Assembly: GCF_900104065.1 (NCBI RefSeq)
Contig: NZ_FNLC01000002.1
Location: 540,995-604,994 of the forward strand
Origin: Natronobacterium texcoconense
GTDB lineage: Archaea > Halobacteriota > Halobacteria > Halobacteriales > Natrialbaceae
DNA: 64,000 nucleotides
Reading direction: 5' to 3'
The notes below the pieces were generated by a model that was not told the DNA's origin, did no database searches, and saw only the letters and a program-made list of their open reading frames with translations. Position numbers and translations under genes: made by a program. Positions within the stretch are counted from its first letter, which is position 1; each line of letters begins with the position of its first letter. Positions 48,767 to 62,428 of this stretch are shown in pieces.

Positions 48767-50029
48767 CTATTCGCCGGCGTTACGGCTCTCTCGAGAACAC
48801 CGATCCGCCGCGTCGTCGGTGCTGTGACGAGAACCAGGTGAATCGACTTTCGCACTACTTTTGGCGAGCGTTCCGAGGACGGCAGCGTCGCTGGCACCGG
48901 TAACGGACGGAACCGACCCGGGACGATCGGCGTCGAACAGGGCCGCGAGCAGGCCGAACAGCACCGCCTCGCGGGAGTCGGGGGCGATCCCCCGCTTTCC
49001 GCTCGTTTCGACGGGAACGGAGAGTCGATCCTCGAGTCGCGAGAGCACGGTCTCGTTGTACGCACCGCCGCCGGAGACGACGACCCGGTCCGGATCGAGG
49101 TCGACGTGGCGCTCGTAGGCGTCCGCGATCGACTCGCTGGTGAGCGCGGTAACCGTCGCGACGACGTTGTCGGCCGCCAGGCCGTCCTTGCGGGCCCGCT
49201 CGAGGACGCGCGTCGCGTAGCCGTCGCCGTACCGCTCCCGCCCCGTCGACTTCGGTGGCGCGCGCTCGAGATACGGGTCGTCGAGGAGATCGGTCAGCAG
49301 GTCGTCGTCGACGGTCCCGGCGGTAGCCATCCGCCCGTCCTCGTCGAACTGGCGCTCGCCGTCGGTGAGTCGCTCGACGACGGCGTCGATTACCATATTC
49401 CCGGGACCGGTGTCGAACGCTGTGACGGTAGACCAGTCCCCGCCTTCCGGGAGGACGGTACAGTTGCCGATACCGCCGATATTCTGGACGATCCGGTCTT
49501 CCGACGCCCGACCAAACTGGATCCAGTCCAGCAGCGGCGAGAGCGGCGCGCCGTGGCCTCCTGCGGCAACGTCGGCCGACCGGAAGTCGGCGACGGTGTC
49601 GATCCCCGTCTCTCGGGCGATCACGCTCGGATCGCCGACCTGTAGCGTCGCTCGCGTTCGTCCGAGGTCAGCGGGAAGCGGTTCGTTCGCCGGCGAGTGC
49701 CAGACGGTCTGGCCGTGGCTCCCGATCAGGTCGACACCTTCGGGTGCGACGTCGGCGGTCTCGAGGAGACCCTCGACGGCGCGGGCGAACCGCCTGCCGA
49801 CGGCGACCCGCGCTCGCGCGAGTTCCTCGACCGTCGTCGCCTCGTCACAGATGGATCGAACGTACTCCCGGAACGACGGCTCGTACTCGTCCGTGACGAA
49901 CGCCTCGCGCTCGACCGTTGCTTCCGTGAGCGGCACGTCCGCGTCCGGGAGGTCGACTCGACAGAGCGCCGCGTCGACGCCGTCGAGCGACGTACCCGAC
50001 ATGAGTCCGATAGTACGGTACGAAGTCAC
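48767..50029 (-). CDS. anmK: Anhydro-N-acetylmuramic acid kinase
   Basis: A 420-residue sugar kinase of the hexokinase-fold AnmK family. The start is GTG 50029, so that the family N-terminus TIGLMSGTSLDGVDAALC is complete. Other motifs are LIGSHGQTVWHSP, NIGGIGNCTVLP and FDTGPGNMVIDAVV, all typical of AnmK. The enzyme opens and phosphorylates 1,6-anhydro-MurNAc to MurNAc-6-phosphate, a bacterial peptidoglycan recycling step. An archaeon has no murein of its own, so the substrate would come from bacterial debris. It is the last gene of a minus-strand operon, 57 bases after nagZ. Confidence 0.88.
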   Translation of the reverse strand: MTSYRTIGLMSGTSLDGVDAALCRVDLPDADVPLTEATVEREAFVTDEYEPSFREYVRSICDEATTVEELARARVAVGRRFARAVEGLLETADVAPEGVDLIGSHGQTVWHSPANEPLPADLGRTRATLQVGDPSVIARETGIDTVADFRSADVAAGGHGAPLSPLLDWIQFGRASEDRIVQNIGGIGNCTVLPEGGDWSTVTAFDTGPGNMVIDAVVERLTDGERQFDEDGRMATAGTVDDDLLTDLLDDPYLERAPPKSTGRERYGDGYATRVLERARKDGLAADNVVATVTALTSESIADAYERHVDLDPDRVVVSGGGAYNETVLSRLEDRLSVPVETSGKRGIAPDSREAVLFGLLAALFDADRPGSVPSVTGASDAAVLGTLAKSSAKVDSPGSRHSTDDAADRCSRESRNAGE

Positions 50030-50086: not shown

Positions 50087-51658
50087 TCACCGAAGACTGG
50101 CAGGCGGCCGACCGCGAGGCCGCTCGTCGCCGACGAGAACGTCGACGAGTGCGCGGAGGTTGCCCGCCGACGGGTCGTACGTCGTCAGGAACGGCTCGAC
50201 GGCCGGCAGGTGGTGGACGTCGTACGGGTTGTTCACGGAGACGACGACGGGCGAGTGACTGGCGTCGAGAAGGCGCTCGAGAGCCGACGCCTGCGCGGGG
50301 TTCCGGGCGACGTTCGCGGCACAACACAGGAGCTGGGATCCAACAGGAATGGACGAGAGGTCGGCGGGTTCTTCGCGGTCTACCTCGAGGACGTGTGTCT
50401 CGAACCCACGGTCCGTAAGCTGGGCCGCCAGTACGTCCAGCGCGGACTGGGTTTCTGCCGCCGGCGAACCGCCGGTCGTTCGGGGCCCAACGATGTACAG
50501 CGGTTCGTCCGGGTCGAACGGCAGCGCTGTGTCGAACTCGCCTCGAACCAGCGTCACTGCGTCACGCGAGAGGTCACGGAGGGCAGCGAGGTCGGAGTCC
50601 GCGGCAGGGTCACTCTCCGCCCCGGACCGTTCGGGACGGAGGTCGCGCCGGGATTTCAGCGTGAGGATGCGCTCGACCGACTCGTCGATACGGTCTTCGG
50701 CGAGTTCGCCGGTCTCGACCGCCTCGAGGACGGCTTCGATCGCCCGGCGCTGTCGGTCCGCCGAGTGCGAGACGAGGACGACGTCGGCACCGGCGGCGAT
50801 CGCCTCGACTGCACCACGTTCGGTGCCGACGGTGTCCGCGATGGCGTTCATCTCCATGCAGTCGGTCGTGAGCAGGCCGTCGAATCCCAGCCGATCGCGC
50901 AGGAGATCGGTCAGGACGGCCCGTGACAGCGTCGCTGGTTTCGTCTCCGAGCCGGTGATCGCCGGGAAGGCGACGTGTGCGGTCATGATGGCGTCGATCC
51001 CTGCGTCGATCGCCCGCTCGAACGGCCGGAATTCGACGTCCTCGAGTCGATCCCCGTCGGCGTCGACGACCGGGAGCTCCGCGTGGGAGTCGGTCGAGGT
51101 GTCACCGTGACCGGGGAAGTGTTTCCCGCAGGCGACGACGTCGGCGGACTGTAACGCCTCGAGGTAGCGCTCGCCGAACGTGGCGACCTCGTCGGGGTCT
51201 TCGCCGTAGGAACGGACGCCGATAACCGGGTTATCCGGGTTGTTGTTCACGTCGAGGACGGGCGCGAGGTTACAGTTGATGCCGACGCTCCGGAGCTGGG
51301 CCGCCGTGACGCGTGCGACGGTCTCCGCGGCGTCCGGGTCGTCGGTCGCGCCGGCGGCCATCGCTCCCGGCGTCTCCGTGTAGTACGGGAGGCGACGAAC
51401 CGTTCCACCCTCCTGATCGACGGAGAGAAACAGCGGGATTTCTGCGCCCTCCTCGAGAGCGGTTCGCTGGAGCGACCGCGAGAGAGTTCGCGTCTGTTCG
51501 GGCGTCTCCAGGTTTCGCGAGAAGTAGATGACCCCGCCGACGTGGTACTCCCGGATCAGCGACCGGATTTCGTCCGTCGGTTCGGTGCCCGGAAAACCCA
51601 CGTGAAATAGCTGTCCGACCTTCTGCTCAAGCGTCAGATCTGCGACGGTGGTCTCCAT
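50087..51658 (-). CDS. nagZ: Beta-N-acetylhexosaminidase NagZ (GH3), two-domain type
   Basis: A 523-residue GH3 enzyme, start ATG 51658. The NagZ signature GKHFPGHGDTSTDSH carries the D190-H192 acid-base dyad that distinguishes NagZ from beta-glucosidases. The nucleophile is D266 in TTDCMEM. A C-terminal GH3 alpha/beta domain (about 355-515) is present, as in Bacillus NagZ and unlike the one-domain proteobacterial enzyme. No signal peptide is seen, so the enzyme should remove GlcNAc from imported GlcNAc-MurNAc or GlcNAc oligomers in the cytoplasm. Its ATG shares one base with the namZ stop. Confidence 0.88.
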   Translation of the reverse strand: METTVADLTLEQKVGQLFHVGFPGTEPTDEIRSLIREYHVGGVIYFSRNLETPEQTRTLSRSLQRTALEEGAEIPLFLSVDQEGGTVRRLPYYTETPGAMAAGATDDPDAAETVARVTAAQLRSVGINCNLAPVLDVNNNPDNPVIGVRSYGEDPDEVATFGERYLEALQSADVVACGKHFPGHGDTSTDSHAELPVVDADGDRLEDVEFRPFERAIDAGIDAIMTAHVAFPAITGSETKPATLSRAVLTDLLRDRLGFDGLLTTDCMEMNAIADTVGTERGAVEAIAAGADVVLVSHSADRQRRAIEAVLEAVETGELAEDRIDESVERILTLKSRRDLRPERSGAESDPAADSDLAALRDLSRDAVTLVRGEFDTALPFDPDEPLYIVGPRTTGGSPAAETQSALDVLAAQLTDRGFETHVLEVDREEPADLSSIPVGSQLLCCAANVARNPAQASALERLLDASHSPVVVSVNNPYDVHHLPAVEPFLTTYDPSAGNLRALVDVLVGDERPRGRPPASLR

Positions 51659-52827
51659 TATTGATACAGGGTGTAGTCGTCGAGGAGGTCTGCGAACGCC
51701 TCCCGTTCTTCGTCCCACCGTCGGTCGAGACGGTCGTACACGTCGTCCGCGCTCTCGTTAGGATCGACGTCCGAAATCGTTTCCCGGAGGGTCCGGCCGC
51801 CGGCCAGCTTGTCGACGAAGTGCTCGCCGTTCGATTGCACCCAGTCGGACTCGGGGTACAGCTGGAACGCCGTGATCAGCATCTTCACGCCGATTTCGAC
51901 CGGCGCGATCTCGTCGCGGTCCATCACGTGAATCTGGACGCCCTCGACGTCCTGGCGCTCGTGTTTCGAGAACATCGGCGTGAAGTACGCCGGGCGGAAG
52001 GCACAGCCGTCGACGTCGAGGTCGTTGAGCGTCGCCGCCCACTCCTCGGCGTCGACCCAGGGCGCGCCGATCAGTTCGAACGGCTTGGTCGTCCCGCGAC
52101 CCTCCGAGAGCGTCGTTCCCTCGAACAGGCAGGTCCCGGGATAGATCGTCGCGGTGTCGAGCGTCGGCATGTTCGGAGACGGCGGCACCCAGGCGAGCTC
52201 GAGTTCGTCGTACCAGGTGTCGTGGGTCCAGCCCTCGAGTTCGACGACCTCCAGGTCGGCCCCCAGGTCGAACTCGCCGTTGAAGTACCGGGCCAGTTCC
52301 CCGACGGTCAGCCCGTGCGTGATCGGGAGCCGGCGCCCGCCGACGAACGACTCGTGGTCGGGCGATACGCGGTTCCCGTCGACCGCGAGCGGCGCGATCG
52401 GGTTCGGCCGATCGAGGACGACGAACGACGTGTCAGTCTCGCTGATCCCTTCCAGAGCGTACGCGAGCGTGTAGATCAGGGTGTAGAACCGGCAGCCGAT
52501 GTCCTGCATGTCGTAGACGACCGTATCGAGATCCTCGACCATATCGGGCTCGAGCCGGCGGTTGTCGCCGTACAGACTCGTGACCGGTAGCCCCGTTCGT
52601 TCGTCGACGCTGTCGTCGACCTTCACGCCGGCCTGCTCGTTTCCACGAATGCCGTGTTCCGGCCCGAACAGCCGGACGAGTTCGACGTCGTCGTGATTGT
52701 ATAGCGTGTCGATCGTCGGAACCAGTTCGGAGTCGACGCCCGACGGATTAGTGATCAGGCCGACGCGGTCGCCCGCGATCGGTTCCATCTGCGTGTCTAC
52801 TAACGTCTCGATGCCCACGCGAACCAT
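51658..52827 (-). CDS. namZ: Exo-beta-N-acetylmuramidase family protein (NamZ, DUF1343)
   Basis: A 389-residue DUF1343 protein, start ATG 52827. Family marks are RVGLITNPSGVD, LVRLFGPEHGIRG, DMQDIGCRFYTLIYTL and VVLDRPNPI. Characterised relatives (NamZ of Bacillus, GH171) release MurNAc from non-reducing ends of muropeptides. In Bacillus the enzyme is secreted; here no signal peptide is visible. It is coupled to nagZ through TAATG, giving the same NagZ-NamZ pairing as in the Bacillus MurNAc cluster. It has its own TATA element. Confidence 0.85.
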   Translation of the reverse strand: MVRVGIETLVDTQMEPIAGDRVGLITNPSGVDSELVPTIDTLYNHDDVELVRLFGPEHGIRGNEQAGVKVDDSVDERTGLPVTSLYGDNRRLEPDMVEDLDTVVYDMQDIGCRFYTLIYTLAYALEGISETDTSFVVLDRPNPIAPLAVDGNRVSPDHESFVGGRRLPITHGLTVGELARYFNGEFDLGADLEVVELEGWTHDTWYDELELAWVPPSPNMPTLDTATIYPGTCLFEGTTLSEGRGTTKPFELIGAPWVDAEEWAATLNDLDVDGCAFRPAYFTPMFSKHERQDVEGVQIHVMDRDEIAPVEIGVKMLITAFQLYPESDWVQSNGEHFVDKLAGGRTLRETISDVDPNESADDVYDRLDRRWDEEREAFADLLDDYTLYQ

Positions 52828-52850
52828 ACTGGCGGTTACCGAGGGCGTGA

Positions 52851-52860
52851 TTATAAATAT
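52851..52860 (-). promoter_or_regulatory. TATA element of the namZ-nagZ-anmK operon
   Basis: On the minus strand the sequence is ATATTTATAA, centred about 28 bases before ATG 52827. It predicts a nearly leaderless transcript beginning at namZ. Confidence 0.55.
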
Positions 52861-52905
52861 GTGGGTGAGTCGCAAATTCAGTCGGCTCCAGGCGCTCGCG
52901 AGGCG

Positions 52906-53898
52906 TCACTCGAAGTGAGGCATCACGTCGTCGGCGAGCGCGTCGATCGTCCGGCGCGGGTCGCCAACTTTCGAGACGACGATGACGCGGTCGATGCCCG
53001 CTTCCTCGAGCCGTTCGACGACGGGGACGAGGTCGCTCGCGTCGTCGGTCACGTTGTTGAGCGTCCGTAACTCTTCGTCGCTGACGTCGGCCAATCGCTC
53101 GTCGGCGAGAGACTGGATCTCTCTCGGATCCGCGGTATCGAGTTCCTCGTGGGGCGTGTACTCTCCTTTGGCCCGGAGTTCGTCGACGAGGTCGTCCGGA
53201 TCGCCGACGTGGGCCGACAGCTGTACCGAGATGGTGCCGCCGCCGGAGTCTTCACGCTCGGATTGCCCGGCCTCGAACGCCGGTGCGAGCGTCTCTTCGA
53301 TCAGGTCGGCGTCGCCGGCCGTGATGAGGTTGCCGGCGTACTTGCCGGCGCACTTCGCGGACTGGGGCCCCCACGCCGCCCAGTGGAGCGGAATCTCCGA
53401 CCGGGGCTTCGTGTAGAGTTTCATCTCGTCGTACTGGTAGTACTCGCCCTCGTGGGAGACGTACTCGTCGCGCTCCCAGAGCGTCTCCATCAGGTCGAGC
53501 GACTCGATGAGCATCCCCGCCAGCGTTCCCCAGTCGGGCCACTCGCCGTCGTAAAACCGAGCTTCGTTGAGCGCCTCGCCAGTTCCGACGCCGAACTCGA
53601 GCCGCCCCGGATACGCGTTGTCGATGGTCGCGAGCGCCTGGGCCAGTACAGGTGGTTCGTACCTGATCGTTGGACAGCTCACGCAGGTACCGACAGTGAC
53701 GTCGGGAACCCGCTCGACGAGCGAGCCGAGCCACGGCAGGACGTGGTGCGTGTACGGTCGATTGTCGAGCCAGGGGACGAAGTGGTCGCCGATCCAGATA
53801 CCGTCGAATCCAGCGTCCGCGGCGTACGCGGCTAGCTCGAGATCGTCACCGGGGGAGCGAAAGCACCCCCCAACGTTGTAGTGCCACTCGATTGGCAT
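52906..53898 (-). CDS. LLM-class flavin/F420-dependent oxidoreductase-like protein
   Basis: A 330-residue luciferase-fold protein, ATG at 53898 (MPIEWHYNVGGCF). Family segments are AGFDGIWIGDHFVPW, VGTCVSCPTIRYEPP and EFGVGTGEALNEARFYDG. It resembles the protein at 3414-4379. Its place between namZ and a probable TIM-barrel hydrolase suggests a role in the island, perhaps oxidation of a released sugar or lactate-derived product; the substrate is unknown. TTTTAA about 27 bases before the start is a possible TATA element. Confidence 0.78.
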   Translation of the reverse strand: MPIEWHYNVGGCFRSPGDDLELAAYAADAGFDGIWIGDHFVPWLDNRPYTHHVLPWLGSLVERVPDVTVGTCVSCPTIRYEPPVLAQALATIDNAYPGRLEFGVGTGEALNEARFYDGEWPDWGTLAGMLIESLDLMETLWERDEYVSHEGEYYQYDEMKLYTKPRSEIPLHWAAWGPQSAKCAGKYAGNLITAGDADLIEETLAPAFEAGQSEREDSGGGTISVQLSAHVGDPDDLVDELRAKGEYTPHEELDTADPREIQSLADERLADVSDEELRTLNNVTDDASDLVPVVERLEEAGIDRVIVVSKVGDPRRTIDALADDVMPHFE

Positions 53899-53964
53899 GT
53901 ACTCACCAGATCGACGAACCGCATTAAAACTTCCCCGCCGAGACCGCATTTCGATGGCGAGCTG

Positions 53965-55143
53965 TCACGTGAGCTTCGTCACGCCGTTCGGTGCGACCCA
54001 GTCGAGTTGCGTCTCCGTGAGGAGCGCGTGATTGTAGACGAACACCTCGCCGTCGATCCGCTCCGTGACGCGATCCAGAAGCCGTTCCCACTGCTCGCGG
54101 TCCTCGACCACCGACGGGTCGAGGGTGAGTCCCGCGTCGATCGGGTGATCCAGCGACTCCTCGCAGTCGGTCAACCGGGCGTCGATCTCGTCTATGTCGT
54201 CGGTGTAACAGAGTGCCGTGACGTCGTCGACGTACTCCCCGAGGAGCCCCGGTGTGACGCCGCTCGGCCAGAGGCTCGACGGGGCGTAGCCGCCGCCGTC
54301 GGCGAGGTAGTACGAGAGACGTGCGTCGTCGCTGGCCGCAGCGAGCGTCGCGAGGAGGTCGCCGATGACCGCCGAGCGGAACTCGAACAGCGCGTCCAGT
54401 TCCGGGTGCTCTGCGACCAGTTCCGACAGGGATGGCGTCGGTTCGGTGGTAGTGAGATACTGCTCGCACAACCGGGATACGACCGCTTCGGCAGCTGAGA
54501 GATCGACGATCCCTCGTTCACGTGCTTCGCGATGGCAGCCGTCGCAGAAACACTGCGAGACGAGGAATTCGTCGGCCCGGTTCGTTATCACGTGGTCCTT
54601 GTGGTGGCCGAAGCGGTCGCCGTGGCCGTGAACGACGCTCGGGAACCCGAGCGACTCGAGGTCGACCCGTTCGACGTCGTAGTGGGCGATATTGCGAACG
54701 ATCCCGGCGTAGTAGCGTCGTACTTCGTCGTGGGAGGGACAGAGCGCGTGATCGTGTGCAGTCCCGAACGCGTCCTCGATTCGGTACTCCGGCCACGCTC
54801 CGGCCAGGCGCGTCCCGTGAGCGCAGACGAGCCACGCGTCGACGTCGATTCCGCAGTCGTTCGCCGTCGCGACGATATCGGCGAACGCGTCGGGGTGCTG
54901 GTAGCTCTCGTTTCGTGGCGGATCGATCGGCGTCCGCTCGAAGTACGTCTCGTCGGGGTCGAACAGACAGCCTCCCGGAAACGTGTCGAATCCGAGGTCG
55001 TCGGCTTTTGGGTCGAACGTCCGAACCGAGTGATAGTGGGCGGCGACTTTCAGGTGATCGATGCCAGCGTCCGCGAGCCCCTCTATCGTCGTCTCGGGGC
55101 AAGGATCCGATAGACTCCACGGATAGGTCCACAGACCGGTCAT
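53965..55143 (-). CDS. Uncharacterised probable TIM-barrel hydrolase with CxCxxC motif
   Basis: A 392-residue soluble protein I cannot place in a named family. The strand-helix pattern suggests a glycosidase-like TIM barrel: GLADAGIDHLKVAAHYHSV near the start, then VDAWLVCAHGTRLAG, and RVDLESLGFPSVVHGHGDRFGHH, rich in His, Asp and Glu and likely the active site. A cysteine motif, CFCDGCHREA, follows after about 30 residues. The protein at 56937 has the same CxCxxC element in a similar place. No signal peptide. It opens the minus-strand series leading to the LLM and namZ genes. Confidence 0.65.
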   Translation of the reverse strand: MTGLWTYPWSLSDPCPETTIEGLADAGIDHLKVAAHYHSVRTFDPKADDLGFDTFPGGCLFDPDETYFERTPIDPPRNESYQHPDAFADIVATANDCGIDVDAWLVCAHGTRLAGAWPEYRIEDAFGTAHDHALCPSHDEVRRYYAGIVRNIAHYDVERVDLESLGFPSVVHGHGDRFGHHKDHVITNRADEFLVSQCFCDGCHREARERGIVDLSAAEAVVSRLCEQYLTTTEPTPSLSELVAEHPELDALFEFRSAVIGDLLATLAAASDDARLSYYLADGGGYAPSSLWPSGVTPGLLGEYVDDVTALCYTDDIDEIDARLTDCEESLDHPIDAGLTLDPSVVEDREQWERLLDRVTERIDGEVFVYNHALLTETQLDWVAPNGVTKLT

Positions 55144-55271
55144 TGGGGATACTTATCTATCAGCAAGTAAAACTCTTTTCCACGACTTACACGTCGTCAG
55201 CTGTGACTCTCGCCTCCACGTTCGACGGGGTCGCCCCCGATTTTATGGTATCCGAGTCGTATACTCGAGCC

Positions 55272-55625
55272 ATGTGCCGGTACGAGACGAAGTTCGACGA
55301 CGGTGATTTCTACCTGGAAACCGACGACGGCTGGCTCGAGGTGGGAGCCGAAGCGACGTTGCTCGAGTTACTCGGCGAGACGTACGCACTCGAGTACGAC
55401 GATCGCCAGCAGGCAGTCTCGTGGCTCGAGACCGACGAGGACGGCGTACTGACTTTCGACGTTCGGGAGACGCTCTCGGAGCAGACGTTTACCGAGGATT
55501 TCGTCGCCCAGATCGCCGACTGTGATCCGGACGCGACGACCGACGAGGGCGTTCCGGTTCGGACGGCAGTCTTCGCCGATATGATGCGTTCGATCTGGGA
55601 CGCCAAAGGCAACCTCGAGGCGTAG
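55272..55625 (+). CDS. Small acidic protein, 117 residues, unknown function
   Basis: The ATG at 55272 (MCRYETKFDDGDFYLE) is chosen because TTTTATGG about 29 bases upstream looks like a TATA element and covers the alternative upstream ATG. The protein is soluble, very acidic, and ends in a helix (FADMMRSIWDAKGNLEA). It shows no known motif. It precedes ridA by 89 bases on the same strand, and ridA has its own TATA-like element. Confidence 0.65.
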   Translation: MCRYETKFDDGDFYLETDDGWLEVGAEATLLELLGETYALEYDDRQQAVSWLETDEDGVLTFDVRETLSEQTFTEDFVAQIADCDPDATTDEGVPVRTAVFADMMRSIWDAKGNLEA

Positions 55626-55714
55626 CTGCCGACCACAGTGCAGGCAGTTCGACGGTTACCCGCCGTTCGACTGCACACCACACTTAATACGTATCCGCCG
55701 GAAGTTCACGCTGG

Positions 55715-56089
55715 ATGAAAGCAATCCAGACTGACGAGGCACCGGAGAGTATCGGTCCCTTCTCGCAGGCGGTCCTGGACGGCGATCGACTCTACGTCTC
55801 CGGCCAGGGACCGGTCGACCCGGACACGGGCGAAATCGTCGACGGCGACATCGCGACCCAGACGGAGCGAACGCTCGAGAACGTGGACGCAGTCCTGCAG
55901 GCGGCCGGCTGTTCGCTCGACGACGTCGTCAAGGCGACCGTCTACGTCCAGGACATGGACGACTACGACGCCATCAACGAAGTGTACGGTCGCTACATGA
56001 GCGAGCCGTATCCGGCACGCAGCGCCGTTCAGGTCGAGGACCTCCCCATCGACATCGGCGTCGAGATCGAAGTCATCGCGTCGGTCTGA
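55715..56089 (+). CDS. ridA: RidA-family enamine/imine deaminase
   Basis: A 124-residue YjgF/YER057c/UK114 protein covering the whole family length. The start is MKAIQTDEAPESIGPFSQAV, and the conserved arginine lies in YPARSAVQVEDLPID. RidA hydrolyses reactive 2-aminoacrylate and related enamines released by PLP-dependent dehydratases. In this cluster the SelA-like lyase (58795) would be a source of such intermediates, though RidA is also a general housekeeping protein. TTAATACG about 27 bases upstream is a likely TATA element. Confidence 0.9.
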   Translation: MKAIQTDEAPESIGPFSQAVLDGDRLYVSGQGPVDPDTGEIVDGDIATQTERTLENVDAVLQAAGCSLDDVVKATVYVQDMDDYDAINEVYGRYMSEPYPARSAVQVEDLPIDIGVEIEVIASV

Positions 56090-56135
56090 TCGGACGACGC
56101 GAAGGTTTTTGTGGACGTACTGAGATTCAATTCGT

Positions 56136-56936
56136 GTGATTCGTGATCAGCTCACGCACTCGAGTTCCTGGGTCGGCCGGACAGCAGGAGAGATCCGCGA
56201 GGTCGGCGAGTCGGACGGCTCGATCCTGATCGTCCCCGTCGGAAGCGTCGAACAGCACGGCGACCACCTCCCGGTCGGGACGGATACGCTGCTGGCCTCG
56301 GCTGTCGCGACCCGCGGTGCCGAACTCGCCTCGGACGTCCCAGTCGCGGTCACGCCGCCGATCTGGAGCGGCTACTCGCCACATCACCTGCAGTTCGGCG
56401 GCACCCTCACGCTCTCGTTCGAGACCGCACTCGCCGTCGTCGAGGACGTCGTCTCGAGCGGCCTCGAGAACGGGTTCGACGCCGTCCTGCTGGTCAACGG
56501 CCACGGCGGGAACGGCCCGCTCGTCGGCGCGGCAGTCAGCGAAATCGGCGTCGATCATCCCGACGCCGAGGTGACCGGCATCACGTACTTCTCCCTGGCG
56601 GAGTCGTTCGCCGACGAGATCCGTGACAGCGAGGACGGCGGGATGGCTCACGGCGGCGAGTTCGAGACCTCACTGCTGTTGCACCTCTATCCCGACCTGG
56701 TTCGCGAGGACGGCGACGCGACACCGCTCGAGGAGCCGTACGACCTCGGCGACGCCGACCTCCTCGCGCCGGGACCGCTCTCGGTCTACCGATCGTTCGA
56801 GGAGTACTCGGAGTCGGGTGCGATCGGCGAACCCGAACTGGCGTCGGCCGAGAAGGGGCGCGAACTCTTCGAGCGACTCGGGGACGAACTCGAGACGCTC
56901 CTCCGGGAGATCCACGAGCGAAACCGGGATACCTGA
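56136..56936 (+). CDS. Creatininase-family amidohydrolase
   Basis: A 266-residue member of the creatininase family. The start is GTG 56136. Metal-binding residues are visible in VGSVEQHGDHLPVGTD (Glu, His, Asp), LLVNGHGGNGPLV (His) and AHGGEFETSLLL (Glu). The family cleaves creatinine, formamides and lactam or amide bonds in diverse pathways. In this cluster an amide of an amino-sugar derivative is a plausible substrate, but this is inference. The gene abuts the convergent TIM-barrel gene with no gap between the stops. Confidence 0.85.
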   Translation: MIRDQLTHSSSWVGRTAGEIREVGESDGSILIVPVGSVEQHGDHLPVGTDTLLASAVATRGAELASDVPVAVTPPIWSGYSPHHLQFGGTLTLSFETALAVVEDVVSSGLENGFDAVLLVNGHGGNGPLVGAAVSEIGVDHPDAEVTGITYFSLAESFADEIRDSEDGGMAHGGEFETSLLLHLYPDLVREDGDATPLEEPYDLGDADLLAPGPLSVYRSFEEYSESGAIGEPELASAEKGRELFERLGDELETLLREIHERNRDT

Positions 56937-57941
56937 TCAGTCCGGAAGCGCGTCGAGGTACGTGTTCCAGACCGCCTCGGGATCGTCGCAGGCGATGCTG
57001 GAAATCGACGCACAGCCGTCGTACCCCCACGTGAAGACGCTGTCGACGCCACCCTCGACGGCCGTTTTCGTCGCCTTCTCGACTGTACGAATGGTCTCGG
57101 GGTCGTCGTCGAGCCGGAACCCCTGGATCCAGATCTGACTCTGCAGGTCGTACTGGTCGGCGAGCGCCACGACCCGATCCGTGTACTCGGCGACGAACGA
57201 CGTCGCGTCGGTCGCGTGCTCGAACGCATCCCAGTAGGGATCGGTCGCGAACACGTCGAGGTGATCGCTCGCCGCGAGAGTGTCCCAGTCGGAGAGCCCG
57301 TGTGCGGCGTCCTGGCGCGGGAGCAGGCAGACGGCGTTGCGCGCGCCCGCATCGCGGACGACGGCCATCGTCTCCTCGAGAAACTCGAGCAGAGACTCCT
57401 CCCTGAACTCGTCGGTTCGGTCGGTCCGCTCGTCTGGAAGCGGTTCGTCGTACCGGCGTTCGTACGCACGTTGACAGTGGTCGCAGTGACAGGCCCACGC
57501 ACCCTCGGGGACGTCGACGTCGGCCCACTCCGAGATGAACCAGTGGGGTTCGTCCCAGAAGACGACATCCGCGCCGATCCCGACCGCCGCCTCGGTCCAC
57601 TCCTGCACGAACCTCCTGAACGTCGGATGGTTGAAACAGGCCGCCGGAACCGCGTCGCCGCTCGAGAGCCGCTGGCGGGCCTCGGGGTGGCGACCGACGA
57701 ACTCCGACAGTGCCTCGCCGCCGAAGACGCGCCCGACACCCCAGGGGTTTACGTAGACGGTGAATCCGCGCTCGTGGCTCGCCTCGATCGTTCGCTCGAG
57801 GGTGCCGCGATAGTACTGCAGGTCGCGCTCGCTGAACGTGTGCAAGACCGCGTTCAGTCCCGCGTCCGCAAATCGATCCAGATCTCGGGTCGCGTGATCG
57901 ACGTTTCTCACGCCGAAGTAACTGGTACCGCGTTCTAGCAT
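56937..57941 (-). CDS. Uncharacterised probable TIM-barrel protein with CxCxxC motif
   Basis: A 334-residue soluble protein with beta-alpha barrel character: FADAGLNAVLHTFSER, then ERGFTVYVNPWGVG, then GADVVFWDEPHWFISEW, where D and E in WDEPH could be catalytic. A cysteine motif ACHCDHCQRAYERRY follows. Later strands contain DVFATDPYWD and SVFTWGYDGC. The fold and acidic barrel ends suggest a glycosidase-like enzyme. It shares the CxCxxC position with the protein at 53965, although overall identity appears low. No signal peptide. Confidence 0.65.
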   Translation of the reverse strand: MLERGTSYFGVRNVDHATRDLDRFADAGLNAVLHTFSERDLQYYRGTLERTIEASHERGFTVYVNPWGVGRVFGGEALSEFVGRHPEARQRLSSGDAVPAACFNHPTFRRFVQEWTEAAVGIGADVVFWDEPHWFISEWADVDVPEGAWACHCDHCQRAYERRYDEPLPDERTDRTDEFREESLLEFLEETMAVVRDAGARNAVCLLPRQDAAHGLSDWDTLAASDHLDVFATDPYWDAFEHATDATSFVAEYTDRVVALADQYDLQSQIWIQGFRLDDDPETIRTVEKATKTAVEGGVDSVFTWGYDGCASISSIACDDPEAVWNTYLDALPD

Positions 57942-57987: not shown

Positions 57988-58686
57988 CTACCTGAGCCCG
58001 TCGTCGGCGACCTCGTGGTGCCGGCTGAATCCTTCGGCGAACTCCACGCCCGCCGTCGTTCCCTGCGTTCGCGCTCTGGCCCTGACGTTCTCGATCAGGT
58101 CGTCGAACTCGGCGTCGATCCCCCCGTGTTCCTCGAGGAACTCGACCTGCGACTCGTGGTGGAGGATCGCCTCCTCCTTCCGGTCCTGGTAGTCACTGAC
58201 GTCGACGTACACGTCCGGTTCGAACTCCGCGGTCGGCTTCCCGAAGAAGTAGACGTTCTCCGGGTCGTGGGGTGCGTGTTCGGTCTCGACCATCGGCAGC
58301 GACGCCATGTAGTAGGCGTCCGTAACCAGTTTCGACGTCTCCCGGTGGTCCGGATGCATGTCGTCGTCGTGGTGGGTGACGATCAACTCCGGTTCGTACT
58401 CCCGGATGACGTCGACGATCTCGAGGCGGTTCTCGAGCGTGTTCTGGACGCGTCCGTCCTCGAACTCGAGGAACGTACAGTCACAGCCGAGCGTCTCGGC
58501 CGACCGACGAGCCTCTTCGCGACGCGTCGCCGCGACCTCCGCTTCGGTCGCGTCGAACCCGCCGTACTCGCCGGCAGTCAGGTGTGCGATCGTCACGTCG
58601 TCGCCGCGGTCGGCGTGTCTGGCGAGCGTTCCGCCACAGAAGATGTCCGCGTCGTCCGGATGTGCCACTAACGCAAGGATGCGCAT
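57988..58686 (-). CDS. PIG-L/LmbE-family N-acetyl-sugar deacetylase
   Basis: A 232-residue zinc hydrolase. The N-terminal AHPDD motif (H9-P-D-D12) supplies two ligands and the general base, and HPDH in THHDDDMHPDHRETSK supplies the third ligand region. The family removes N-acetyl groups from GlcNAc derivatives; in Thermococcales a related Dac enzyme acts on chitin products. Here it could deacetylate GlcNAc released by NagZ. It lies 46 bases upstream of the probable TIM-barrel gene on the same strand, so the two are likely co-transcribed. Confidence 0.85.
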   Translation of the reverse strand: MRILALVAHPDDADIFCGGTLARHADRGDDVTIAHLTAGEYGGFDATEAEVAATRREEARRSAETLGCDCTFLEFEDGRVQNTLENRLEIVDVIREYEPELIVTHHDDDMHPDHRETSKLVTDAYYMASLPMVETEHAPHDPENVYFFGKPTAEFEPDVYVDVSDYQDRKEEAILHHESQVEFLEEHGGIDAEFDDLIENVRARARTQGTTAGVEFAEGFSRHHEVADDGLR

Positions 58687-58794
58687 AGCTCTCGATTCAC
58701 ACCGGGGTGAGTTAAATCTGATCGCTCCGGGTACTGAAGGGGACGACTCGAGTGTGCCCTATTCTTATCTGTCAGCTATTCGTACGGGTTCGTG

Positions 58795-59997
58795 ATGGCC
58801 GATTCAGTGTACGAACGGATCGGAGTACCGGACGTGATCAACGCCACGGGAACGAAGACTCGGATCGGTGGAAGTCGAATCAGACCGGCGGCTGCCGAGG
58901 CAATGTGCGAGGCGGCCGACGGCTTCGCGCGGATCTCCGACCTGCAGGCGCGAGCGTCGGAGCTAATCCAGGAGGTTACCGGTGCACAGGCGGGCTACGT
59001 CTGCTCGGGAGCCAGTGCCTGTCTCACGCTCGCGGCGGCGGCGACCATCGCGGGCAACGACCTCGCCGCGATGGCACAGCTGCCGGATACCGAGGGACTC
59101 GCCGACGAGATCGTCGTCCCTCGAACCCACCGCACCGGGTACGACCACGCCTACCGGATCGCGGGCGCGACGATCGTCGACGTCGGGACGAACGACGCCC
59201 ACCTCGGAACGGGTGCCGAGAACACCGAGCTATGGGAGATCGACGCCGCGATCACCGAAGACACCGCGGCGGTCGCCTACATGCAAAAGTCCTACAGCCG
59301 GCCGCCGCTCGAGGACGTCGTCGAGATTGCCCACGAGCGAGACGTCCCGGTGATCGTCGACGCCGCTGCCGAGTTGCCGCCGGTCGAGAACCTGGAACGG
59401 TTCGTCGAGATGGGCGTTGATTTGGTCGCGTTCAGTGGCGGGAAGGCGATCCGTGGGCCGCAGACGACCGGCTTCCTGGCCGGACGCGAGGACCTGATTC
59501 GGTCGGTAGCCGCCCAGCACCTCGACATGCACGCCGCCGAGGACGCCTGGGTTCCGCCGTCGGAGCTTCTCGACGTCGACGCGCTCGGGGGCGTCCCTCG
59601 GCAGGGAATCGGCCGGGGAATGAAAGTCGGGAAAGAGGAACTCGTCGGGCTGATCACGGCGCTCGAACTGTTCCTCGAGGAAGACCAGGACGAACGGCTC
59701 GCCGAGTGGCAGCGTCGTGCGGAGACGATCGCGGAGGGGCTTTCCGATCTCGACGGGGTCGAGACGTCGCTGACGGAAGCCGGAAAGACTGCGGTCACTC
59801 CGGAGGTCGTCGTCAGCCCCGAGACTACCACGGAAACGTCGGCCACGACTGTCGTCCGGGAACTTCGGGAGGAGACGCCGCGAATCTACGTCGGCGCGGA
59901 CGACCTCGATCGGAACCAGTTTACCGTCAATCCAATGTGCTTGACCGACGAGGAGGCTGATTACGTGATTGAACGGCTTAGGGACCACCTGGGGTAA
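58795..59997 (+). CDS. SelA/D-glucosaminate-ammonia-lyase-like PLP enzyme
   Basis: A 400-residue fold-type I PLP protein, ATG 58795 (GTG 58792 just before). It starts with PDVINATGTKTRIGGS, the family N-terminus of SelA-like and DgaE-like enzymes. The PLP aspartate is D189 in VIVDAAAELPP and the lysine K217 in AFSGGKAIRGPQTTG. Haloarchaea do not all have selenocysteine, and such stand-alone homologues often act as sugar amino-acid lyases, for example on D-glucosaminate-6-phosphate. The neighbouring deacetylase and RidA fit a role in amino-sugar acid breakdown. Confidence 0.8.
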   Translation: MADSVYERIGVPDVINATGTKTRIGGSRIRPAAAEAMCEAADGFARISDLQARASELIQEVTGAQAGYVCSGASACLTLAAAATIAGNDLAAMAQLPDTEGLADEIVVPRTHRTGYDHAYRIAGATIVDVGTNDAHLGTGAENTELWEIDAAITEDTAAVAYMQKSYSRPPLEDVVEIAHERDVPVIVDAAAELPPVENLERFVEMGVDLVAFSGGKAIRGPQTTGFLAGREDLIRSVAAQHLDMHAAEDAWVPPSELLDVDALGGVPRQGIGRGMKVGKEELVGLITALELFLEEDQDERLAEWQRRAETIAEGLSDLDGVETSLTEAGKTAVTPEVVVSPETTTETSATTVVRELREETPRIYVGADDLDRNQFTVNPMCLTDEEADYVIERLRDHLG

Positions 59998-60316: not shown

Positions 60317-62428
60317 ATGACGTTCGAACGACGGGACTTCATCAAGGCGACAGGTACAGGACTTGGATTGACTGCTCTCGGTAGTACGGCAACGACGACC
60401 ATCGCAGCAGACACTGGTGGCACAACGGAGTCGTTCCGTGCGTACTGGGCGGATGCGTTCAACGACGGCATCAAAACCGAGGAACAGATCGATGCACTGG
60501 TCGAACGAAGCGTCGAGCAGAACCTGAACGCGATCATCGCGCAGGTAGTACGCCGGGGCGACTTCTACGGTGACGAGGGTCACCCGCCACGCACGGAAGA
60601 TCCGGAGGTGGACGACGATATCGATCCGCTGGCGTTGTTGATAGAGAAGGCAAGCGAGCACGGTCTGGAAGTGCACGCGTGGTTGGTGGTAGGGAAGATG
60701 GCGGACCCAGAGGATTTGCCTGAATCGGAGGATCACCCAGTGAACGCACACGGTCCGGACAGCGAGGACCCGTGGGTGAGCCAGACGCCCGACGGCGACG
60801 TCATCGAGTTGGGCGGGGACTACGCGTTCGACCTCGGTCATCCAGGTGTACACGAGTTCTTCGTCGAGACCGTCGAGAGTATCGTCGAGAACTACGACGT
60901 CGACGGGATCAACCTGGACTACATCCGGTATCCGGACGTTGAGGACCATCAGGAGTTCGGGTACAACGAAACTGCAGTCCAGCGGTTCCTCGAGGCGACC
61001 GAATACGACGACGTACCGGAGCCGCCCGAAGAAGTCCAGTTCCCGCCGATGGATCCTGGCGTCGTCGGTCAGGACTATATCGACTGGACCGCATGGCGCC
61101 GTCGGCAGGTGACGGACTTGGTGCGGCGGATCTACCTAACGGTGAAAGATCACGATCCGTCGCTGCGGGTGAGCATCGACGGCATTGCCTGGGGACCGGC
61201 ACCGATTGCCGGACCGAATGCCGAAGCTTCGTGGCTCGACGCTGACGACGCGTGGCAGCGCAAGGGTAACTGGTTCCAGATCATGCAGGACTGGCGTGGC
61301 TGGATGTACGAGGGCATCATCGACACGAACATCGTGATGAATTACGCTCGGGAGTTCGTTGACAACCAGCGCGATCAGTACCGCGGCTGGGCCGACTACC
61401 TCAAGGATCTGCAAAACGCCACCGAACGTGATGCAGTCATCGGCCAGGCCAACTTCTTCAATTTCCTCGAAGACACCGACGCCCAGATTCGTGTGGCGCA
61501 GGAACCCAGCGAACACCGGTATGCGAACGACCCGTCGTGGATCCACACTGAAGAGGACAGTACAGCAAACGGCTGGGCTGGCTTCTCGTATGCGAACCCG
61601 AAACGGAGCTACCTCCATCGGGACGGCGAAGATCCTGAACTCGACGAAGAGTACCCAGACATGACGCTGGCGGAGGCACACGACACGATCACGGAGATGT
61701 TTACCGAGGACCCACCGGAGCAAGCGGGTGAAGACGCCGAACCGGTGTTCGCCGACGAAACAGCGATTCCAGAGATGCCGTGGGTTCACGAGGAAGGGCA
61801 CATCAGCGTGACTGTCACCGAAGGCGGACAGCCACTCGACCAGGCCGAGGTAACCCTCTCGGGTGAGGGAGAGACCATCGAGCGCACGACCGACGGTTCT
61901 GGCTGGGTTGGGTTCGCGGCACTCGACCCCGGCGAATACACTGTCGAGTCCGGCGACGAATCGACCACTATCACGGTCGAAGCCGGGTCAGTGACGCCGG
62001 CTGCGCTGGATACGGGTGTCGATTTCGAACGGTTCGATGTCTGCTTCCAGGGCTGCGGTCAAGCCCGGATCGTCGTCAGCGAAGACGACGTTGCGACTGC
62101 CGACGACGAAGCCCCGACCGCACACGTTATCGTCGAATCCGACGGCGAGGCGGTGTGTGAAACCGTCGCGATCACCGAGGAGAATACGACCACGATCCCA
62201 GGTCAGTTCGGTGACGCACCGGTAGTCACGTATACCGCCGACGGCAAGATCCTCGGCGTTGCGGCATCGCTCTCCTCGGGCGAGGTCGTCGTCGAAAACG
62301 AGAACAACTGCGCGACGACACCGAACACGCCCGACGTACTGGAGGCCGACTGCCTCCCCGAAGGCGCGGCAGTCGACCCCGACGGGCCGGGCTGTGATGG
62401 CGGTCGGGGAAACGGCAACGGTAACTGA
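60317..62428 (+). CDS. Tat-secreted GHL10-family glycosidase-like protein
   Basis: A 703-residue exported protein. The Tat signal is FERRDFIKATGTGLGLTALG; no lipobox. Residues 35-430 match the GHL10 (DUF187/COG1649) barrel, with DVDGINLDYIRYPD as the core motif and later LRVSIDGIAWGPAP. Residues about 490-555 form a carboxypeptidase-regulatory-like beta domain (GGQPLDQAEVTLSGEGE). The tail has several cysteines and ends GGRGNGNGN. Codon use is less GC-biased than its neighbours, suggesting separate origin. It is the only clearly secreted hydrolase of the island; substrate unknown. Confidence 0.82.
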   Translation: MTFERRDFIKATGTGLGLTALGSTATTTIAADTGGTTESFRAYWADAFNDGIKTEEQIDALVERSVEQNLNAIIAQVVRRGDFYGDEGHPPRTEDPEVDDDIDPLALLIEKASEHGLEVHAWLVVGKMADPEDLPESEDHPVNAHGPDSEDPWVSQTPDGDVIELGGDYAFDLGHPGVHEFFVETVESIVENYDVDGINLDYIRYPDVEDHQEFGYNETAVQRFLEATEYDDVPEPPEEVQFPPMDPGVVGQDYIDWTAWRRRQVTDLVRRIYLTVKDHDPSLRVSIDGIAWGPAPIAGPNAEASWLDADDAWQRKGNWFQIMQDWRGWMYEGIIDTNIVMNYAREFVDNQRDQYRGWADYLKDLQNATERDAVIGQANFFNFLEDTDAQIRVAQEPSEHRYANDPSWIHTEEDSTANGWAGFSYANPKRSYLHRDGEDPELDEEYPDMTLAEAHDTITEMFTEDPPEQAGEDAEPVFADETAIPEMPWVHEEGHISVTVTEGGQPLDQAEVTLSGEGETIERTTDGSGWVGFAALDPGEYTVESGDESTTITVEAGSVTPAALDTGVDFERFDVCFQGCGQARIVVSEDDVATADDEAPTAHVIVESDGEAVCETVAITEENTTTIPGQFGDAPVVTYTADGKILGVAASLSSGEVVVENENNCATTPNTPDVLEADCLPEGAAVDPDGPGCDGGRGNGNGN

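Follow-up and report, generated by a model that had tools for sequence, protein, structure and literature searches.

Two related proteins of predicted GH42/GHL10 type in an apparent muropeptide-catabolism island of the haloarchaeon Natronobacterium texcoconense

The stretch of the Natronobacterium texcoconense genome analyzed here (the window: 64,000 nucleotides, positions 540,995 to 604,994 of contig NZ_FNLC01000002.1) carries two uncharacterized genes, here called P1 and P2, which flank genes for RidA and a creatininase-family hydrolase. A first-pass annotation, made by a model from the DNA letters, had proposed two open reading frames at these positions and had described this flanking arrangement. 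Both frames are indeed present, but on the minus strand; the plus frame is interrupted by stops. The same annotation placed the genes in an island and linked them tentatively to cell-wall sugars, in agreement with the presence of AnmK, GH3 and NamZ genes in the island. The apparent muropeptide-catabolism island covers window positions 39241-63784 and, besides these three genes, includes a dipeptide-type ABC transporter, an epimerase-like MR/MLE enzyme and an IclR regulator. According to our analysis, P1 and P2 represent a real, conserved and previously unannotated pair of protein families of a known general type.

The CxCxxC element that had been noticed in both proteins was borne out by translation, and it is invariant in both family alignments (30 of 30 P1 sequences and 50 of 50 P2 sequences). 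None of the 16 other island proteins (6563 amino acids, 0.9% Cys) contains such an element, and at the Cys frequency of the island chance alone would give about 0.0005 occurrences in 726 amino acids. Another invariant Cys, missed in the first-pass annotation, is located 28-29 residues ahead of the acidic residue (C135 in P1 and C102 in P2). As for the acidic and histidine-containing strand proposed for the two proteins, its acidic residues are invariant (E163 in P1, D130-E131 in P2), but the 'HGHGD' stretch of P1 is not conserved, since only H180 is kept in the distant P1 clade.

The two proteins had been suspected to be related to each other. BLASTP detects no similarity between P1 and P2 directly, and the link is visible to profiles only: in hhalign, the P1 family matches the P2 family at 96% over 252 columns, with CxCxxC on CxCxxC and C135 on C102. 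In this alignment E163 of P1 falls on D130 of P2, one column ahead of E131. None of the control families (LLM, epimerase, NamZ, NagZ, creatininase, AnmK, DgaE and IclR) exceeds 11%, including those that are themselves of barrel type (LLM, epimerase and GH3). On the basis of these profiles, P1 and P2 can be assigned with high confidence to a common superfamily. The comparison with GHL families proposed in the first-pass annotation was also informative: P1 and GHL10 (PF02638; Cwp19 of C. difficile) match at 96.4% over 117 columns, and E163 is aligned with the Asp of the GHL10 motif 'NLDYIRYP'. The corresponding values for P2 are 52.9% against three haloarchaeal GH42 proteins and 32.5% against GHL10.

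Neither protein had been assigned to a known family. Indeed, the library models do not cover the window proteins: Pfam gives no match for either, and NCBIfam a single chance match (E 0.27). Nevertheless, they do have kin, P2 being GH42-like and P1 GHL10-like. PF02638 weakly matches 16 of 30 P1 homologues at E<=1 (best 2e-5), and not the window P1. PF02449, the GH42 model, does not match the window P2 and weakly matches 2 of 18 P2 homologues (best 1.2e-4); one P2 homologue resembles MupG_N weakly (E 0.008). In sequence searches of the PDB, P1 retrieves only 4s1a (1.7e-5, partial) and, weakly, Cwp19, and P2 has no significant match. No relative was found in a scan of viral contigs with P1.

Table 1. 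Features of the P1/P2 locus (window positions)
Feature	Position	Strand	Description
P1	53965..55143	-	392 amino acids, uncharacterized, GHL10-like with CxCxxC; no obvious signal peptide
P1 C135	54739..54741	-	invariant upstream Cys, 30/30; candidate fourth zinc ligand; aligns with P2 C102
P1 L162-E163	54655..54660	-	E163 lies at the predicted strand 4 end, where no other acidic residue is invariant
P1 CFCDGC (C198, C200, C203)	54535..54552	-	30/30 homologues, checked by translation
P2	56937..57941	-	334 amino acids, uncharacterized, GH42-like barrel; no obvious signal peptide
P2 C102	57636..57638	-	invariant upstream Cys, 50/50; aligns with the Cys of GH42 'YCFNS'
P2 D130-E131	57549..57554	-	strand 4 C-terminal end; 50/50 homologues
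P2 CHCDHC (C151, C153, C156)	57474..57491	-	50/50; aligns with GH42 'RCYCDDC'
P2 D234	57240..57242	-	invariant Asp after strand 6 (DPYW), 50/50
AnmK, anhydro-MurNAc kinase	48767..50029	-	PF03702 1.9e-94
GH3 NagZ-like beta-N-acetylhexosaminidase	50087..51718	-	PF00933 3.5e-100; NagZ-like name suggested by context
NamZ exo-beta-N-acetylmuramidase	51658..52875	-	PF07075 and PF20732
F420-dependent-type LLM oxidoreductase	52906..53949	-	PF00296; TIGR03557 family, under its cut-off
RidA	55715..56089	+	PF01042
Creatininase-family hydrolase	56136..56936	+	PF02633
PIG-L (BshB1-like) deacetylase	57988..58686	-	PF02585; TIGR04001 171.5 against cut-off 182.5
DgaE/SelA-like PLP enzyme (aminosugar-acid ammonia lyase-like)	58792..59997	+	TIGR01437 208.8 bits, under cut-off 385
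Tat-type exported GHL10 protein	60317..62428	+	PF02638 1.3e-27

A barrel-like pattern had been suggested for both proteins. For P2 it is confirmed by a confident AlphaFold2 model built on the 50 sequences (pLDDT 94.6, pTM 0.93), and the predicted fold is, with high confidence, a (beta/alpha)8 barrel like the catalytic domain of GH42 enzymes. For P1 a barrel is suggested by profile-profile similarity only. When the P2 model was re-aligned to solved structures, the best match was the GH42 A4 beta-galactosidase 1kwg (Z 26.7, root-mean-square deviation 2.7, 301 residues), followed by the Halorubrum lacusprofundi GH42 enzyme 6lvw (Z 26.1), the GHL10 protein Cwp19 (24.7) and the C-terminal domain of PgaB (24.3). 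Plain Foldseek ranking places GH35, GH42, mannanase and GH20 first with similar E-values, and therefore the nearest family of P2 is not certain. A BFVD search with P2 returned generic glycosidase-type barrels only.

The strands of P2 carry, at their C-terminal ends, all the invariant acidic and aromatic residues of the pocket: E38/D40, W67, D130/E131, D234, W271 and W305. Thus the expectation that acidic residues meet at the barrel mouth is supported for P2 only, as judged by secondary-structure position. Strand 4 of P2 ends in D-E (Asp130 followed by the invariant Glu131), a putative counterpart of the N-E of GH42 enzymes with its acid/base Glu. Unlike GH42 enzymes, P2 is a single 334-residue domain and lacks the strand-7 Glu nucleophile: as read from sequence and secondary structure, its strand 7 ends in W271-I-Q, with no conserved acid there in the 50 sequences. 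P1, too, shows no invariant acidic residue in the matching region. Loss of the GH42 nucleophile might be taken to mean that P1 and P2 are non-catalytic regulatory or binding barrels of glycosidase descent. We consider this very improbable, as an acidic and aromatic set at the barrel mouth that is invariant in 50 P2 proteins from six phyla suggests a working pocket.

GH42 enzymes contain a structural zinc loop of four Cys near the active site, which is lost in some members (PMC12842569). In P2 the four Cys are all present, invariant and aligned with the GH42 cysteines. By analogy, the four Cys of P1 and P2 probably hold zinc, with a structural rather than a catalytic role. A catalytic role of the cysteines was considered and dropped, because they fit the structural zinc pattern of GH42.

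Among 292 haloarchaea, 53 carry a member of the P1 family and 23 a member of its close clade (E < 1e-80). AnmK is present in 13 of the 292 genomes and NamZ in the identical 13, all of which carry a close P1; ignoring phylogeny, the chance of finding a close P1 in all 13 AnmK genomes is 8e-17. In each of them P1 belongs to the same island as NamZ, with at most one gene between the two, and the genes for the epimerase, the ABC transporter, the creatininase and IclR are recurrent members of these islands. One public record shows the same island order, with gene names, and another has an apparently truncated AnmK.

Relatives of P2 were collected in a scan that used a P1+P2 concatenation as query, both patterns used being derived from P2. 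They come from haloarchaea, Actinobacteria, Chloroflexi, Fibrobacter, Paenibacillus and Thermotogae, with the haloarchaeal and actinobacterial P2 clades as sister groups (99/93). In 16 actinobacterial P2 loci, MurQ is fused to P2 in 10 and follows it directly in 3; one locus has MurQ at a distance, and in 2 it is absent or not visible. The fused MurQ, a SIS-domain enzyme (TIGR00274), sits C-terminal of P2, which is not itself a MurQ; three of the fusions (L077, L086 and L089) pass the TIGR00274 cut-off. AnmK is found nearby in 7 actinobacterial P2 loci. In haloarchaea, P2 is often a neighbor of a pyridoxal phosphate (PLP) lyase, a deacetylase, RidA or a dipeptide-type ABC transporter. MupG, a 6-phospho-N-acetylmuramidase, supplies MurQ (PMC6262408). 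P2 differs from MupG in family, with no significant sequence link between them.

Based on these observations, we have good confidence that P1 and P2 play a role in muramic- or amino-sugar catabolism. More specifically, they may be cytoplasmic GH42/GHL10-type barrels that break down imported bacterial muramic or amino sugars by cutting fragments with amino sugars in a glycosidase or transglycosylase reaction without a nucleophile, a proposal to which we give an even chance. The reaction itself, that of a hydrolase, a transglycosylase or a lyase, can be suggested with moderate confidence at best from the sequences. The earlier suggestion of new glycosidases or lyases acting on cell-wall sugars is, overall, partly supported.

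In the proposed mechanism, the general acid at the end of strand 4 would be E163 alone in P1 or the D130-E131 pair in P2, the latter comparable to the Asp-Glu pair of GH20. Strand 4 would lie between the upstream Cys and the CxCxxC, which together would form, as in GH42, the structural zinc site on the side of the active site. Because P2 is without a strand-7 nucleophile and P1 without an invariant acid in the corresponding part, the N-acetyl group of the substrate would most likely act instead of a nucleophile. The outcome could be either hydrolysis, as in GH20, or formation of a 1,6-anhydro sugar, as by a lytic transglycosylase. Anhydro-N-acetylmuramic acid (anhydro-MurNAc) is the substrate of AnmK. 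P1 may serve the NamZ/NagZ/AnmK step, and P2 may supply a product containing MurNAc or an amino sugar to MurQ in Actinobacteria and to a deacetylase/PLP-lyase branch in haloarchaea. Cwp19, a GHL10 protein, has been reported to have lytic transglycosylase activity (PMC6016235).

Several observations weigh against this proposal. First, the AlphaFold2 model of P1, built from two sequences, is unusable (pLDDT 42). Second, the GHL10 protein of the window is exported and lacks the Cys ligands; P1, by contrast, carries the additional cysteines and shows no obvious signal peptide. Third, relatives of both proteins occur in other surroundings. P1 relatives are found in Rhizobium and, in loci for sulfated or amino sugars without NamZ, next to GH20, sulfatase and deacetylase genes in Natrinema and next to sulfatase genes in Haloprofundus. 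A distant P1 homologue on pHME505 of Haloferax mediterranei (L162) is accompanied by genes for a creatininase, an MR/MLE enzyme, an SDR, a Rid protein, and an aldolase and a kinase for 2-keto-3-deoxygluconate (KDG); this sugar-acid locus, which forms KDG, represents a different sugar pathway built from much the same gene set. P2 is found beside four-carbon-acid-sugar (OtnK-type) genes in Haladaptatus, and its Fibrobacter neighborhoods contain no informative genes. Specificity for muramic sugars therefore does not hold throughout either family. These Haloferax, Natrinema, Haloprofundus and Haladaptatus loci would also be expected if P1 and P2 were general amino-sugar or sugar-acid glycosidases recruited to several catabolic loci, with muramic acid as one context only. 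We regard this as possible, if on the unlikely side, given that all 13 haloarchaea with NamZ and AnmK carry a close P1 and that the P2-MurQ fusions specifically indicate MurNAc metabolism.

MurQ exceeds the TIGR00274 family cut-off in none of the 292 haloarchaea, including the genome of the window. Matches to TIGR00274 do occur in most haloarchaea; they were rejected as MurQ candidates, being partial and far under the cut-off. The 13 AnmK-carrying haloarchaea, all with a close P1, are thus without a recognizable MurQ, which could mean that MurNAc loses its D-lactyl ether without MurQ and with the participation of P1 and/or P2, either as an etherase or as accessories to an oxidative deacetylase/PLP-lyase route. 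The linkage of P2 with MurQ in Actinobacteria and the postulate of an unidentified non-MurQ lactyl etherase in mycobacteria (PMC13041923) are in line with this possibility. However, P2 occurs there together with a MurQ-family domain and is hardly its replacement, and the fold is that of O-glycosidases. Moreover, the PLP lyase of the island alone could expel lactate, conceivably by beta-elimination on a muramic aldonate, which would replace MurQ. A role of P1 and/or P2 in lactyl-ether removal is, in our opinion, distinctly unlikely. A broader version, in which the island provides MurQ-independent use of bacterial muramic acid by haloarchaea and P1 and P2 are new enzyme families (a GH42/GHL10-type muramyl enzyme lacking a nucleophile and a cousin partnered with MurQ), one of them directly handling the muramyl or lactyl-ether step, also appears unlikely.

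If the preferred reading of P1 and P2 as sugar-degrading barrels is correct, two unnamed families would be placed in cell-wall-sugar catabolism, one of them spanning haloarchaea, Actinobacteria, Fibrobacter and other phyla. It would also mean that archaea without such peptidoglycan hold a dedicated island for consuming it. As the island has an anhydro-MurNAc kinase and an exo-muramidase and no recognizable MurQ, the question of lactyl-ether removal is directly testable.

Some other features of the island may be mentioned. The LLM oxidoreductase, creatininase, RidA, PIG-L deacetylase and DgaE-like enzyme could constitute an oxidative non-phosphorylating route for amino sugars. A beta-lactamase-family serine hydrolase (for example, L138:13646) is encoded in 8 AnmK islands, with no match found in the genome of the window; by analogy with the muropeptide operon of Bacillus, it may be an amidase. 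Of the 12 other haloarchaeal AnmK islands, 10 (for example, L138 and L154-L155) contain HAD-type phosphatase genes, possibly MupP-like; in the genome of the window similar HAD genes are found outside the window only. Finally, the GH3 (NagZ-like) and NamZ reading frames overlap by about 60 bases, and the GTG start of the GH3 gene was probably called too early.

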